Assembly (NCBI RefSeq): GCF_000147875.1
Contig: NC_014507.1
Location: 744,001 to 808,000, forward strand
Direction: 5' to 3'
DNA length: 64,000 nucleotides
Source: Methanolacinia petrolearia DSM 11571
GTDB taxonomy: Archaea; Halobacteriota; Methanomicrobia; Methanomicrobiales; Methanomicrobiaceae
Part shown: positions 5,389 to 40,182 of the stretch, one piece after another
Numbering within the stretch: the stretch's first letter is position 1
How the letters are laid out: every line of letters starts with the position of its first letter
The notes under the pieces: generated by a model
What the model was told of the DNA's origin: nothing
Database searches by the model: none
Seen by the model: only the letters and a program-made list of their open reading frames with translations
Program-made: the position numbers and the translations under genes

Positions 5389-6450
5389 CTAATCTTTCCT
5401 TAGCTGACCCGCCTTTGCGATCTTATCCTTTATCGCCTTCCTGACTACCTCACGCTTGACAATTATGACTGTCCCAAAGATCCCGAGGAAGATATTGAAG
5501 TAATACAGGATAAGCCTCCACAGGACCACGAATATGCCTACTATTGCAGACGGAACGAAGAGTGCGTAAAGAGACGTAGCCGAGAGTTCTGCGATACCAG
5601 AACTTCCCGGTGTAAGCGGGATCATCATGATTATGGCAATAATAATCTGTGCCACAAACGATTCGACGATATGCGGCCCTTCGCCAAGACCCATCAGTAT
5701 AAGCGAAGCGATGTAGAACTCGGAGAACCAGTAGAGAACTGTGAAGAGAGCTCCCCACATAAGACCTCTTTTCGAGTGGCTCACATAATTCTTCAGGGCG
5801 GAGTTGAAATTGTCGACCTCCTCGTCGATATCTTTTGTAAGCTTCTCAATCTTTTCTGCACGCCAGCGTTTCGTGAACCAGCCTGAGACCTTCTTGATCA
5901 GCCTCTTGAGAAACTCGGGATTCTTAACTGAATATGCAAAGAGAACCACAAACCCGACGATCATCAGCCACATGAAGAGAAGCGGAATCGTTATTGTAAG
6001 ACCAAGCTCTTCCGCACCGATCCACAGGAGAAACATTGCGACTCCCCCTATTATGCCCAGCAGGATGCCGTCAAGAACCCTCTCCATGATGACGATTGCT
6101 GTAGCGTCACCCAGCGGAACGTTGACCCGGTATAGTTCATGTATTCTGACAGGCTCCCCTCCTGCCTGAGAGGGAGTCACTGCTGCGATCAGGAGATTTG
6201 CAAACACCATATTCAGGCAGTGGAGGAACGGGACTTTATATCCCAGTGACAGGGACATCATCTTGATCCTCATGGACCAGAAACACATGGATATCATGTG
6301 CAGTACCAGAGCTGCAATAAGATATACCGGCTTTAACTGCTGAAGATAAGTTATTGTCTGTTCGTCTATGGTAAAATAGAGAACAACTGCAAGAACAATT
6401 ATACTGAATACGATTGAAACCGCAAGCCATTTCCACTGATTCCTGTCCAT
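5389..6450 (-). CDS. Flippase-like integral membrane protein (UPF0104 / LPG synthase TM-region family)
   Basis: A 353-aa polytopic protein with about eight hydrophobic segments and the family hallmark TPSQAGGEPVRI (residues about 91-102), followed by ERVLDG. The family shares its membrane fold with the N-terminal half of MprF and with archaeal AglD-neighbour proteins. Members are proposed to move lipids or lipid-linked sugars across the membrane, but the biochemical role in archaea is not established. The C-terminus is basic and cytoplasmic-like (KREVVRKAIKDKIAKAGQ). It is transcribed alone; 45 bases separate it from the hydrolase start downstream. Confidence 0.88.
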   Translation of the reverse strand: MDRNQWKWLAVSIVFSIIVLAVVLYFTIDEQTITYLQQLKPVYLIAALVLHMISMCFWSMRIKMMSLSLGYKVPFLHCLNMVFANLLIAAVTPSQAGGEPVRIHELYRVNVPLGDATAIVIMERVLDGILLGIIGGVAMFLLWIGAEELGLTITIPLLFMWLMIVGFVVLFAYSVKNPEFLKRLIKKVSGWFTKRWRAEKIEKLTKDIDEEVDNFNSALKNYVSHSKRGLMWGALFTVLYWFSEFYIASLILMGLGEGPHIVESFVAQIIIAIIMMIPLTPGSSGIAELSATSLYALFVPSAIVGIFVVLWRLILYYFNIFLGIFGTVIIVKREVVRKAIKDKIAKAGQLRKD

Positions 6451-7896: not shown

Positions 7897-7967
7897 ATTG
7901 TATCCCTTATTTTTCGAAATTCAATTAGTATATATTTATGTAATAAAGAGAAAAAGAATTAGTTAGT

Positions 7968-8627
7968 TTGTGGTTGACTCTTAACCACAGACATACACCG
8001 AACGACTGGAATGTCTTTGGGGCATCAATTGACATGCTTATAAGGCGGTATTACGAAAGCAGGCTGAAGAAGGGGATTATAAATCCTCCCGAATCCGTAT
8101 GCTTCATGCTGACTGACAGGGATGTCGCCGATGCCCCGGAGAAAACCAATGAAGTGGCGAAATGGTGTTGCGATCTTGGGATCAGCCATATCACGTTTCA
8201 TGTCGATACGGACAATCCCGGGGGATTGAAATCTTTCCTTGAAAAGTTAAAAGAGATCTCCGGATTTGCACAGGTAAACATCTATTGTGCAGGTGAGAAA
8301 TTCGTTGCAGGCGAAGGTGCGGACGTCCATGTAGCAATTGGCGTAAGCGGCAGGGAGGAGATTGTTCGCTGCATACGGCACATGGCACAGGAAAAATTAC
8401 ACCCGAAAGACGTCGACGAAGAGATGATCGAGTCCCACCTGAGTTTCAGGTACGAACCCGACCTTGTAATAAAAGCCGGCGGCAGTCACCTGACCGACTT
8501 CCTGATATGGCAGTCGGTGTACTCGGAACTGTTCTTTACCGACGTAAACTGGAGTGAATTCAGAAAAATAGATCTCCTTAGAGCCCTCCGCGATTACCAG
8601 ACAAGAAAAAGGCGTTACGGCAAATAA
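7968..8627 (+). CDS. Non-catalytic cis-prenyltransferase subunit (Nus1/NgBR-like)
   Basis: A 219-aa paralogue of undecaprenyl diphosphate synthase. It keeps the back half of the fold (FLIWQSVYSELFFTDVNW, then FRKIDLLRALRDY). The N-terminal active-site loop DGNRR is absent; the protein begins MWLTLNHRHTPNDW. The last four residues are RYGK, matching the C-terminal RxG motif that human NgBR (RLGK) and homomeric enzymes donate to the active site. Methanosarcina mazei is known to use a heteromeric cis-prenyltransferase, and this gene looks like the equivalent accessory subunit. Its partner would be the gene it overlaps tail to tail (8615-9388), which shares FRKIDLLR. The start is TTG 7968; a TTG at 7974 is possible. 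An AT-rich TATA-like stretch lies just upstream. Confidence 0.82.
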   Translation: MWLTLNHRHTPNDWNVFGASIDMLIRRYYESRLKKGIINPPESVCFMLTDRDVADAPEKTNEVAKWCCDLGISHITFHVDTDNPGGLKSFLEKLKEISGFAQVNIYCAGEKFVAGEGADVHVAIGVSGREEIVRCIRHMAQEKLHPKDVDEEMIESHLSFRYEPDLVIKAGGSHLTDFLIWQSVYSELFFTDVNWSEFRKIDLLRALRDYQTRKRRYGK

Positions 8628-9388
8628 GAGCTGTCTACTCTGTTGCTGAAGACCCTGATACCCCTTAAGAGGTCGATCTTCCGGAATACCGGCCAGTAGG
8701 GTGCACAGAAATATACCGCCGATTCGTTTCCGTTTGCAAGCCAGGGCAGGAAGTTGGATGTCCTTTTGTCGTCCCCGGTCCTTATGATCAGATCCACCGG
8801 AGGGATATTCATGCCGTGATAGAGGTGGGCGTTGATCAGGTCTTCGGTTATATCTTCAGGAGTCAGGACGCCTCTTTCAATATCGTTCAGGATGCTCTTT
8901 GTCGCATGGAGGATCTCGTTTCTGCCGCCGTAGGCGAGAGCAAGATTTATTGTAAAATTGTTGTAGTTTTTTGTGACTTCCTCAACTTTTTCAATCCTTT
9001 TCAGGAGATCTTCCGGAACAAGATCGCGGTCGCCTACCATCTGGAATCGTATCCTGTTCTCGTGAACCCTCTCATCTTCAAGGGTTTCCATGGCTTTTTC
9101 AGTAAAGAGTTTAAACAGCTCGTTCTGCTCGTATTCCGACCTGTTGAAATTTTCGGTGGAAAAGCAGTATAGCGTAAGATGCCTGACGCCGATGTCTCTT
9201 GCCCATTCGAGAACCATATTTGTCTTCTCGGCTCCCATCCTGTGTCCTATCGCTACATCGATCCCTCTCTCTTTTGCATATCTCCTGTTCCCGTCCTGGA
9301 TGATAGCGATATGATCCGGGATATGCCTGCACTGCCCGAGTATACGTCTCTCGTAAAAAGATTCCAGTACCTGTCCCGGCTTTCTCAA
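8615..9388 (-). CDS. uppS: Cis-prenyltransferase catalytic subunit (undecaprenyl diphosphate synthase family)
   Basis: It elongates an allylic diphosphate with cis-isoprene units to give the polyprenyl (dolichyl-type) carrier for glycan assembly at the membrane. The 257-aa protein has the catalytic loop IAIIQDGNRRYAKERG with Asp32, the region LTLYCFSTENFNRS, and the substrate-binding RTGDDKRTSNFLPW. The C-terminus reads VFSNRVDSSYLP, without the RxG motif that homomeric enzymes need. This fits a DHDDS-like subunit that needs the partner encoded at 7968-8627; the two genes overlap by 13 bases at their 3' ends. Its start overlaps the radical SAM stop (ATGA), and it ends the lysS-radical SAM-uppS unit. 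Confidence 0.92.
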   Translation of the reverse strand: MRKPGQVLESFYERRILGQCRHIPDHIAIIQDGNRRYAKERGIDVAIGHRMGAEKTNMVLEWARDIGVRHLTLYCFSTENFNRSEYEQNELFKLFTEKAMETLEDERVHENRIRFQMVGDRDLVPEDLLKRIEKVEEVTKNYNNFTINLALAYGGRNEILHATKSILNDIERGVLTPEDITEDLINAHLYHGMNIPPVDLIIRTGDDKRTSNFLPWLANGNESAVYFCAPYWPVFRKIDLLRGIRVFSNRVDSSYLP

Positions 9389-10353
9389 ACTGGTGTCACC
9401 TCGACAATCATTCCATTATTGGGGTATCTTTCAATTATCTTTTTGTCTCCCGGAAAGTCGTCGGGGTATTCGGTCAACAGCCACCATGCAAGCTCGATCC
9501 TGTCATCGAATATCTCGCAGAGTTCTTCTTCGAGATCCTCAGGGACAGGTCCCGACGGGATCAGCACCCCGTAGACGACAGTTCCGTCCTCTGTGATCTC
9601 CTCGAACGGGCGTGCGGTATTTTCAGCGATCCTCTTGAGCCTTTCACGGAGCTGAACGGAGTCCTTGAAGGTCGATGAGCACCAGTGGACCTTGTCATCT
9701 GCGGCAAGAAGTTCTCCGGCCCACTCCTTTGCTCCCGGTACCGCATTATGATAGTCGTCTTCGAGACTCAGCTCTCTCTCCCTCATTGCGGCGGCGTTCG
9801 TCTCGCTCCATTCAAGTTCGTTGATATTCAGGTAATCGATAAGGGGAAGAACCGGGATGAGTTTTTCAAGGCCCGGAAGCGACGGTACCTCGATCGTCGC
9901 CTCCATCCCGAGTTCCTTTGCATCATTTATTGCCCTGATATAGTCGGTCCCGAGTATATTGTCCCAAAGCTCCTGCGGCGGGTGGAACCTGATCTCGTCG
10001 ACGAGGCCTTTTAGCCTCGTTAACCTCTCCTTCGACGGAGCCATTCCTGTATACAGGTGTATATGATGCTCGTCCCCGAACTCTGCTTTCAGCATCCCTG
10101 CATAAAATATGACGCGTTCAGTCTCGAGAAGCGCTTCTCCGCCGGTAATCCCCGTTCCGAGGGCGTTCATATTCCTTGCTTCTTCCAGGACATCTTCGGG
10201 TTTTTCGACGAGCCTGTCGTTTGCAAATGTCCTGTCTTTATTCTTTCTTTCGTAGGATATCGGGCAGTACCAGCAATCCTTCTCGCACATGCCTGTAATG
10301 AACAGCACCATCTTTGCGCCTTTATGGCATTGCCTGCATCCTTTGCTGAGCAC
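9385..10353 (-). CDS. Radical SAM protein (COG2108-like)
   Basis: A 322-aa protein with an N-terminal Cys pair (CRQC, residues 6-9) and the radical SAM cluster motif CEKDCWYC (Cys23, 27, 30), followed by GITGGEALLE, the usual GGE element. The family is described as related to pyruvate formate-lyase activating enzyme; its reaction is unknown to me. The start is GTG, one base after the lysS stop, and its own stop overlaps the uppS start, so the three genes are very probably one translationally coupled operon. The context might suggest tRNA, lysine or lipid modification, but nothing in the sequence decides. Confidence 0.88.
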   Translation of the reverse strand: MLSKGCRQCHKGAKMVLFITGMCEKDCWYCPISYERKNKDRTFANDRLVEKPEDVLEEARNMNALGTGITGGEALLETERVIFYAGMLKAEFGDEHHIHLYTGMAPSKERLTRLKGLVDEIRFHPPQELWDNILGTDYIRAINDAKELGMEATIEVPSLPGLEKLIPVLPLIDYLNINELEWSETNAAAMRERELSLEDDYHNAVPGAKEWAGELLAADDKVHWCSSTFKDSVQLRERLKRIAENTARPFEEITEDGTVVYGVLIPSGPVPEDLEEELCEIFDDRIELAWWLLTEYPDDFPGDKKIIERYPNNGMIVEVTPV

Positions 10354-10354
10354 T

Positions 10355-11875
10355 TTATTCCACCGTTTCTTTGAGCCTTTCGATCACGAAATCCCTGCCG
10401 AGCGCCTCGAGGAACCACCCTGCACGCGGCCCTCTCTGCTTTCCGAGTATCGAGATATATATCGCAGTGAAGAGTTCTTTTGAGTCGATTCCCGCTTCAT
10501 CTGCCGCTTCATAGACCACATTATGAAGATCCCCGGCATTCCATGTGTTAAGAGCGGAGTATTTCCCTACAAGGTTCGATATGGCTTTCTTCTGTCCGTC
10601 GGAAAGTTCGGCGCATTCGGGAGGCAGCTCCTTTGCAACGGTGAACTTCACCATATCGGGAGCATATTTCTCCACCCACTTCTCCGCCCTGTGAACTCTC
10701 CTGATCACGGCATCGCGGTTTGTTACATTGTACCCGCTTCTCTCGAGTATGTCGAAGATGTCGTTCTCATTTCTTGCAGTCTGTACGACGGTTACAAGAT
10801 GCCTGAACGGGATGTCGGTTGCAACGCTCGATATTTTTGAGAACTCATACTCCCGCCCTTCTCCCTTCTCTGCGATTTTTGAGTATTCGTCGATGAGCGA
10901 GAGCAGGCCCATGCCGGGATCGAATGTGATTGCCTTCTCGGGTTTCGTCTTTACTATAAGGTACCTCAGGACGTCGGGCGGAACTATCTCGAGCATCGAG
11001 TCTATTGTTATCGCAACTCCGGTCGATGAAGCCATCGCTCCTTTTCCCTTGAGGCTGATCCATTCATAAGGAACAGGGAACGGTGCGGAGCCGCCGAAGA
11101 TCTCTTCCACTATCTTTTTGCCCGTGTCGTATGAGCCGCCGGCTGCAGCGTGGTCCTTTCCGAAGGGCTCGATCGTGACTCCGAGCGCCTTCCATCTCAT
11201 CGGCCAGTCGACACGCCATACGAGTTTGCCCTCGCCTTTCGAGTAGTCGCATACTCCTTCGTGGCCGCAGCCGCACCTGTACCTGACAAGGTGCTTTTCA
11301 GGATCGTGTTCGAGAAGTTCTGCGTTCGAGATGGTCCCGCAGCTGCTGCATATGGGATAGAACGGGACCCAGTTCTCCGGGAGCTGTCTTCCCGAAACGC
11401 TCTCGAGGATCTTCTTTATCCTGGGTGCGTTCTCAAGTGCGGTTTTGATCTCTTCGGTAAACATCCCGGACCTGTATAATTCGCTTGACCTGAGGACTTT
11501 CGGTTTTACATCAAGTTCTTCGAGCGAGTTAAGGAACGGTTCGAGAAAATGTTCGGCATAGCTTTTGTGCTTCCCGCAGGGGCACGGGATGTCGCAGATT
11601 GGCATCCCGATATATTTGCTGTATTCTTCGGGAAGGAACGGGTAGACCTTTCTTAAGGGATCGAACTCGTCCGCATTGTACATGAGTTCTACTTCAAGGC
11701 CCTTCTCCTGCATAGCCTTGTATACGATGTCGCCTGTAAGGACCTCTCTCATATTGCCGATATGGATAGGGCCCGACGGTGTAATCCCGGTAGCAATCCT
11801 GTGAGGAATATCCTGCCGGACTTCTGCGGCAATTACATCAGCCCAGTGTATCTTTTCCTGCCTGTTCATTTGCAT
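10355..11875 (-). CDS. lysS: Lysyl-tRNA synthetase, class I
   Basis: It charges tRNA-Lys with lysine. The 506-aa protein is the archaeal class I (Rossmann-fold) enzyme, unrelated to the class II LysRS. Visible are the HIGH-type motif GPIHIGN (residues 35-41), the KMSKS-type loop KGKGAMASSTG (near residue 280), and zinc-finger-like Cys pairs (CPCG near 98; CSSCG and CGCGHEGVC near 175-205). The start ATG 11875 is followed by a second in-frame ATG at 11869. An AT-rich TATA-like run (TATATATT, 11881-11890) lies just upstream. It heads the lysS-radical SAM-uppS unit. Confidence 0.97.
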   Translation of the reverse strand: MQMNRQEKIHWADVIAAEVRQDIPHRIATGITPSGPIHIGNMREVLTGDIVYKAMQEKGLEVELMYNADEFDPLRKVYPFLPEEYSKYIGMPICDIPCPCGKHKSYAEHFLEPFLNSLEELDVKPKVLRSSELYRSGMFTEEIKTALENAPRIKKILESVSGRQLPENWVPFYPICSSCGTISNAELLEHDPEKHLVRYRCGCGHEGVCDYSKGEGKLVWRVDWPMRWKALGVTIEPFGKDHAAAGGSYDTGKKIVEEIFGGSAPFPVPYEWISLKGKGAMASSTGVAITIDSMLEIVPPDVLRYLIVKTKPEKAITFDPGMGLLSLIDEYSKIAEKGEGREYEFSKISSVATDIPFRHLVTVVQTARNENDIFDILERSGYNVTNRDAVIRRVHRAEKWVEKYAPDMVKFTVAKELPPECAELSDGQKKAISNLVGKYSALNTWNAGDLHNVVYEAADEAGIDSKELFTAIYISILGKQRGPRAGWFLEALGRDFVIERLKETVE

Positions 11876-39123: not shown

Positions 39124-39810
39124 ATGACTTCAGATATTGATATATCCAAAAAGAATGCCGGGTATTTTGCAGCCGAACTCATACAGGACGGCATGGCGGT
39201 CGGGCTCGGAACAGGCTCGACGGTCTTCTACGCCATGGAGCGCCTTTCCGAAAGGATATCCTCCGAAGGTCTTGATATGATCGGCGTCCCAACCTCTTTT
39301 CAGGCCTCGATGAGGGCAAGAGAGTACGGCATTCCGCTCTCCGTGATCGATGAATACCCCTCGCTCGATATTGCAATCGACGGTGCGGACAAGATCGACT
39401 CTTCGCTCCGGATGATAAAAGGAAGAGGAGCCGCACAGACGCTCGAAAGGTGTGTCGCCGATGCTGCGGACCTCTTTGTCGTTGTGGCCGACGAATCTAA
39501 GATGTGCGAAAAGCTCCACGGCCCCGTTCCCGTCGAAGTACTCCCCTTCGCCCTCGGTCTCTTTGAAAGAAGAATCCGTGAACTCGGCGGCATTCCTTCA
39601 ATCCGCCTGGGTGTTAAAAAAGACGGCCCCGTAATAACCGACAGCGGAAATTTCGAAGTAGACTGTGATTTCGGGTTCATCGACGAGCCGGAACTCCTCC
39701 AGTCTGCGATAAACAATATGCCGGGTGTCCTGAGCTGCGGGCTGTTTACGGAATTTACCGACAGGACAAAAGTTGTAATCGGAAATGAAAATGGGGTAAA
39801 TATATTTTGA
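39124..39810 (+). CDS. rpiA: Ribose-5-phosphate isomerase A
   Basis: It interconverts ribose 5-phosphate and ribulose 5-phosphate for nucleotide and cofactor synthesis. The 228-aa protein has VGLGTGSTVFYAMERL (residues 24-39), the active-site DGADKID (about 81-87) and GRGAAQTLER, with the catalytic Glu in the last. It is convergent with the TrmB-like regulator: the two stop codons abut without a spacer (TGATCA). Confidence 0.96.
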   Translation: MTSDIDISKKNAGYFAAELIQDGMAVGLGTGSTVFYAMERLSERISSEGLDMIGVPTSFQASMRAREYGIPLSVIDEYPSLDIAIDGADKIDSSLRMIKGRGAAQTLERCVADAADLFVVVADESKMCEKLHGPVPVEVLPFALGLFERRIRELGGIPSIRLGVKKDGPVITDSGNFEVDCDFGFIDEPELLQSAINNMPGVLSCGLFTEFTDRTKVVIGNENGVNIF

Positions 39811-40182
39811 TCAGACTATTTTTCTGATCTTTTTTATAATTTCAAGCTGGTTTTCGATCTCTTCCTTTTTATCTTTCTCAAGAGTATCGATGATTTCAGG
39901 CATCGGTTTTGACAGATTATATATCTTCACGGGCCTGCCTTTGCTCTCCGCCTTGCTCTCCCTGTTGGAGATCCACTCCTTTTCGCTCAGGGTTCTCATG
40001 GCTATGCTGACTTCCGGCTGGCGGAGATCGGTCCCCCTCTCGATCTCCCTTGATGTCGCTTCTTCAGTATTTGCAAGATAAACCAGAACCTTGGCGACAT
40101 TCTTTTTGAGACCCACTTCAGAAAGAAGATCAGCCAGTTCCTCTTCCTTTTCAGTGAATGTCAAAACTTTTTCGAGTTTCAT
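39811..40182 (-). CDS. TrmB-like winged-helix transcriptional regulator
   Basis: A 123-aa DNA-binding protein. The winged helix covers residues about 18-90 (AKVLVYLANTEEATSREIER, QPEVSIAMRTLSEKEWI, the recognition-helix region). A C-terminal coiled-coil-like helix follows (EKDKKEEIENQLEIIKKIRK), likely for dimerisation. There is no ligand domain, so it is a short form. It lies next to tbp (138 bases apart, same strand) and tail to tail with rpiA. The target is unknown. Confidence 0.86.
   Translation of the reverse strand: MKLEKVLTFTEKEEELADLLSEVGLKKNVAKVLVYLANTEEATSREIERGTDLRQPEVSIAMRTLSEKEWISNRESKAESKGRPVKIYNLSKPMPEIIDTLEKDKKEEIENQLEIIKKIRKIV

Follow-up and report, generated by a model that had tools for sequence, protein, structure and literature searches.

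Two cis-prenyltransferase (cPT) homologues lie tail to tail in the genome of Methanolacinia petrolearia, each lacking a motif that the other retains, which raises the question of whether they are halves of one enzyme and whether their head-on arrangement matters. We examined the pair in a 64,000-nucleotide stretch of this genome (the window), to which coordinates refer unless a locus is named, and compared it with other genomes of the order and phylum. In our judgment it is very probable (roughly 0.92) that their products are partner subunits in a single heteromeric cis-prenyltransferase making a polyprenyl glycan carrier.

Two convergent genes form the complete cPT set

The coordinates of the plus-strand open reading frame (7968-8627) and of the minus-strand one (8615-9388) were verified. 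As the preliminary description had stated, both are cPT homologues, and they converge with a 13-base tail-to-tail overlap (8615-8627, both strands). Each matches Pfam family PF01255. They are the only PF01255 genes in the complete genome (2,843,290 bases, of Methanomicrobiales type), and no cPT homologue was found elsewhere in it, leaving these two reading frames as the full set.

The minus-strand protein is DHDDS-like

The minus-strand gene (8615-9388, TTG start) encodes a DHDDS-like catalytic cPT subunit of 257 amino acids that matches PF01255 over the whole profile (positions 1-214, E 7.6e-68) and TIGR00055 with 231.9 bits. It had been described as keeping the catalytic DGNRR loop with D32 and lacking a C-terminal RxG motif, and this holds: the loop is in place (D32-R36, 9281-9295, minus strand), the chain ends in SNRVDSSYLP, and the same split is fixed in relatives. 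An alignment of 21 minus-type sequences showed conservation of D32-G-N-R-R, E79-N80, R83, R203, R209 and S211. Conservation was also scored in 62 catalytic subunits sampled across the phylum, with the human contacts taken from PMC7573591. The DGNRR catalytic/FPP loop, the E, N and R of the segment E79-N80-F-N-R83 (9140-9154, minus strand), and R203, R209 and S211 of the IPP (S2) site (8756-8782, minus strand) were each invariant in 62/62 DHDDS-type proteins, and all human-equivalent catalytic, FPP, IPP and tail-contact residues checked were invariant except for the variable K84 position. E79, N80 and R83 are the equivalents of E81, N82 and R85 in human DHDDS, which hold the NgBR tail (PMC7573591). 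Among 146 distinct minus-type proteins, 145 carry DGNR and 139 lack a terminal RxG; the other seven do have an R.G close to the terminus, but by eye none of these is in register with the motif. The AlphaFold monomer model (pLDDT 86.3) matched human DHDDS with TM 0.83-0.85, and UppS was matched as well.

Some genomes hold further copies of this gene. Locus L131 (Methanomicrobiales; 8136-8708 and 9635-10405) includes a second DHDDS-like copy without DGNR. Genome G216 (loci L166 and L167) contains two full-length DHDDS-like genes, one of them on a second replicon or contig, along with a single NgBR-like gene and a gene resembling Methanosarcina mazei MM_0014.

The plus-strand protein is NgBR-like

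The plus-strand reading frame is open from TTG 7968, though the protein itself probably starts later: in a 21-sequence alignment the homologues, including one that is 81% identical (L063), begin at ATG 8034, so the product is probably an NgBR/NUS1-like non-catalytic cPT subunit of 197 amino acids (8034-8627, plus strand). The interval 7968-8033, upstream of this probable start, is open and in frame, as are comparable stretches in several relatives; a TATA-like sequence lies near 7930.

The protein matches PF01255 over profile positions 111-219 only (E 2.7e-28), that is, in the C-terminal half, and similarity confined to that half is the textbook description of a non-catalytic cPT subunit (PMC7839719). 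The preliminary description had further reported that it lost the catalytic loop and ends in RYGK; no DGN is present, and the tail reads RKRRYGK, with its RxG motif (RYGK, 8613-8624, plus strand) expected to complete the partner's active site. In the alignment, SGREEI, the block DFLIWQSVYSE and an R-R-[FY]-G tail are conserved, DGN is absent throughout, and the IPP site of the plus-strand protein is degenerate (K...L.T). Over all fetched loci, an RxG ending was found in 119 of 122 distinct plus-type proteins and DGNR in none (0/122), and in a phylum-wide sample of NgBR-type tails the G was present in 61/61, with R in 59/61 and K in 2/61 at this position. The AlphaFold monomer model (pLDDT 83.8) has a cPT fold, with TM 0.65-0.69 to human NUS1. 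When the plus-type profile was compared with the PDB, NUS1 was the sole family matched over nearly the whole length (positions 12-208), yet it scored 28-30 bits versus 82-91 bits for bacterial UppS, so that the match does not establish specific orthology with eukaryotic NgBR. The most notable departures are in families f9 and f15 (loci L176, L178, L184 and L186), whose NgBR-like proteins have diverged strongly (42-131 bits) yet retain an RRxG tail.

Complementary losses across the phylum

Since the same split of motifs is fixed across relatives, it is not a chance feature of this genome. In the order, PF01255 matches were found in 192 of 199 genomes, with exactly two in 182 (counted from the table). 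Across the phylum the plus-type profile had a match in 244 of 246 genomes, and 62 of 63 distant genomes had one strong full-length match and one weaker C-terminal match, a few with further paralogues. Neither of the two genomes of family f12 (~91% complete) gave a plus-type match, and a PF01255 search of one of them (G204) gave none either. Complementary loss is thus phylum-wide, and nearly all of the archaeal phylum has the pair.

In a tree of 128 proteins, a single deep split divides the NgBR type from the DHDDS type; the species groups of one clade recur in the other, the two subunits co-diverging. Each window protein shares its clade with one member of the pair from genome G307, whose third paralogue is so close to the crystallised MM_0014 of M. 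mazei that G307 can be identified as a Methanosarcina. Because the remaining two genes of G307 represent one subunit type each (loci L163/L164), they correspond to MM_0618 and MM_1083, a pair that PMC8131916 describes as a heteromeric cPT with C45-50 products. The window pair, sharing their clades, is therefore orthologous to a biochemically known heteromeric enzyme.

Convergence is conserved, the overlap is not

The preliminary description had also proposed surveying the Methanomicrobiales for the convergent pair, and there convergence proved to be the rule: in the 50 genomes with coordinates for both genes, 47 pairs are convergent, 2 tandem and 1 divergent. The corresponding figure for loci with both genes inside short flanks, 134/134 convergent, is biased by that selection, and 47/50 is the less biased value. 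In 62 distant genomes the two genes lie at most 15 kb apart in 24, of which 23 are convergent and 1 is tandem (read from the table). Linked pairs occur in three clades, namely the Methanomicrobiales, a set of high-GC families that appear haloarchaeal from their GC content (0.63-0.71) and acidic tails, and the four families f7, f11, f16 and f19. On the tree, linkage changed at least five times, two of these changes being breaks inside the high-GC haloarchaeal-type clade, and 11 families with both subunits, that of Methanosarcina among them, have the two genes unlinked.

The suggestion that the overlap couples the genes by antisense transcription did not fare as well. Among 119 distinct layouts, the genes overlap in 19, are separated by 0-100 bases in 49 and by more than 1.3 kb in 8; gaps reach ~4 kb, some of them containing unrelated genes, and one to three genes can intervene. 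The overlap is not conserved, which argues against a conserved antisense mechanism. Short convergent overlaps are, moreover, comparatively common in archaea (PMC2174442). A scan for sigma-70-type promoters and intrinsic terminators, which is uninformative for archaea, found no terminator-like site between the cPT genes. In a literature search that reached few subscription papers, no previous description of this convergent arrangement came to light.

As a control for gene order, 968 kb of this genome was compared with the complete 1.07 Mb genome G203, using neighbour pairs with reciprocal best hits. Pairs were kept in 53 of 81 co-directional, 5 of 18 divergent and 2 of 9 convergent cases, the cPT pair being one of the last, suggesting that conservation of a convergent pair is uncommon, in a sample that is small and against a genome chosen for its linked pair. 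The other convergent pair kept (39124-40182) joins ribose-5-phosphate isomerase A (plus strand) and a TrmB/MarR-like winged-helix protein (minus strand) with abutting tails.

Neighbouring genes

Co-directional with the DHDDS-like gene is a radical SAM protein gene (PF04055; 9385-10353, minus strand), whose stop overlaps the TTG start of the DHDDS-like gene as TTGA (9385-9388); it adjoins that gene in most loci checked and is kept beside it in the Methanomicrobiales. A class I lysyl-tRNA synthetase gene (PF01921; 10355-11875, minus strand), also found near the DHDDS-like gene in L151, L154 and L157, would, judging from the spacing, belong to the same transcription unit as these two. On the other side, a tetrapyrrole-methylase-family (diphthine synthase-like) gene (PF00590; 7144-7896, minus strand) is divergent from the NgBR-like gene and holds the place taken in other families by a gene for a DUF92 membrane protein, which in the window genome lies elsewhere.

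In 37 of 49 distant loci (for example L154:6425-7645, L155:4296-5645 and L158:6493-7836) the DUF92 gene (PF01940, dolichol-kinase-like) is the divergent neighbour of the NgBR-like gene, also in families from which the DHDDS-like gene has moved away; in Methanomicrobiales loci and Methanosarcina-type families it is separated from the NgBR-like gene. DUF92 (arCOG02245) is a relative of dolichol kinase, and others have already remarked on its gene context with uppS (PMC5898192). A membrane protein gene of family PF03706 (UPF0104, arCOG00899; 5389-6450) lies 1.5 kb from the cPT pair, and this family has been proposed to flip lipid-linked saccharides (PMC5898192). The DUF92 and PF03706 neighbours both point to a glycan-carrier pathway.

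A probable heteromeric enzyme and a probably old linkage

The reading of the pair as a DHDDS/NgBR-type enzyme, already put forward from the window alone, is supported by the near-universal complementary losses, by the two proteins being the sole cPTs of their genome, by their place in the Methanosarcina clades and by the conserved contact residues. The genomic linkage of the two genes, and the lack of both in family f12, also speak for it. By analogy with the characterised enzymes, the minus-strand protein would use its DGNRR loop to bind an allylic starter, either FPP or GGPP, while R203, R209 and S211 would bind IPP. The plus-strand protein, a degenerate cPT fold that presumably no longer binds substrate, would dock via the usual cPT dimer face and insert its R-Y-G-K tail into the active site of the catalytic subunit, completing it in trans as human NgBR does. 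The product of such a complex would be a medium-length polyprenyl diphosphate, probably C45-C55, serving as the precursor of a dolichyl-type carrier for N-glycans and S-layer glycans.

Could the minus-strand protein instead be a lone homodimeric cPT that lost RxG, beside an unrelated regulator or decaying paralogue on the plus strand? Such enzymes exist, as M. mazei MM_0014 is a functional homodimer without RxG, its tail being TLGG (PMC8131916). However, MM_0014-like proteins form a separate branch that is absent from the window genome, and the different branch and different tail rule out a homodimer of that kind here; decay is ruled out by the intact, conserved presence of the plus-strand type across the phylum with a nearly invariant RxG, and the orthologous M. 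mazei pair is heteromeric. We regard a lone homodimer as very improbable and retain the heteromeric enzyme as the reading of the pair.

For the layout, a functional role in which the subunits are kept in balance through overlapping 3' ends or antisense transcripts would fit the convergence seen in 47/50 genomes within the order and in 23/24 of the distant genomes with linkage, the scarcity of kept convergent pairs (2/9, against 53/81 co-directional) and, to the extent that the scan can speak for archaea, the lack of a terminator-like site; but the 19/119 overlaps, the gaps of up to ~4 kb with unrelated genes in some, the 11 unlinked families and the general frequency of short convergent overlaps in archaea (PMC2174442) make this improbable. 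The chances are about even that the layout is a passive relic, left by an ancient inverted tandem duplication or by a slowly breaking cluster of DUF92, NgBR-like and DHDDS-like genes: the two types split once, before the phylum diversified, DUF92 stays beside the NgBR-like gene in many loci that lack the DHDDS-like gene, and linkage has changed repeatedly, with two breaks in the high-GC clade alone. A passive relic should, though, break like other convergent pairs, of which 1/8 was kept against G203, again in a small sample. That convergence goes back to the ancestor of the phylum and has been maintained by selection, within a three-gene glycan-carrier module (DUF92, NgBR-like, DHDDS-like), seems to us rather unlikely; if true, two subunits of one enzyme would stay together though unable to share an operon. 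The convergent layout is, on this evidence, a recurrent and probably old linkage that the enzyme itself does not require.

A heteromeric archaeal cPT is already known from M. mazei (MM_0618/MM_1083); what is added here is that complementarity extends across the phylum, that convergent linkage recurs, and that there is a DUF92-NgBR-DHDDS arrangement. On this reading the split cPT is no peculiarity of Methanosarcina or of eukaryotes: it is the enzyme that an entire archaeal phylum uses as standard, including its high-GC haloarchaeal-type families, with the same division of labour between a catalytic and a helper half as in human cells and a head-on layout in three separate branches. The origin of the eukaryotic DHDDS/NgBR enzyme thereby becomes testable as archaeal inheritance versus two splits. 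The small, soluble, adjacent subunits of Methanolacinia petrolearia offer a simple model of the complex affected in human disease, and for gene-order studies it is unusual to see two subunits of the same enzyme linked head-on.

Comparison with known systems

Compared by way of the Methanosarcina genome G307, the window pair and MM_0618/MM_1083 share the phylum, the subunit clades and the complementary motifs. They differ in that the Methanosarcina genes lie far apart (~600 kb in G307) whereas those of the window overlap, and in that a C-terminal extension present on the catalytic subunit of Methanosarcina is missing from the minus-strand protein. The minus-strand protein resembles archaeal cPTs of the MM_0014/MA1831 type in having no RxG, although those occupy their own branch of the tree. 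With the homodimeric bacterial UppS it has the fold, catalytic loop and IPP site in common; UppS, however, carries DGN and RxG on one chain, whereas in the window they are split over two.

Relative to human DHDDS/NgBR (NUS1; PDB 6z1n, 6w2l, 7pb1), two differences stand out. Eukaryotic NgBR has an N-terminal transmembrane anchor, in place of which the window protein has a polar helix followed directly by the cPT-like fold; and human DHDDS forms tetramers through a C-terminal helix-turn-helix, whereas the window protein ends 4 residues past its last core helix, so that this route to a tetramer is absent. Yeast Nus1 has no RxG (PMC7573591), so that not every enzyme of this kind strictly depends on the motif, and to that extent this counts against a DHDDS/NgBR-type reading. 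The structure of the human enzyme places the RxG tail of NgBR in both substrate sites (PMC7573591), and both the human and the archaeal pair combine a DGNRR catalytic subunit without RxG and a degenerate partner ending in RxGK, with the contact residues between them conserved.
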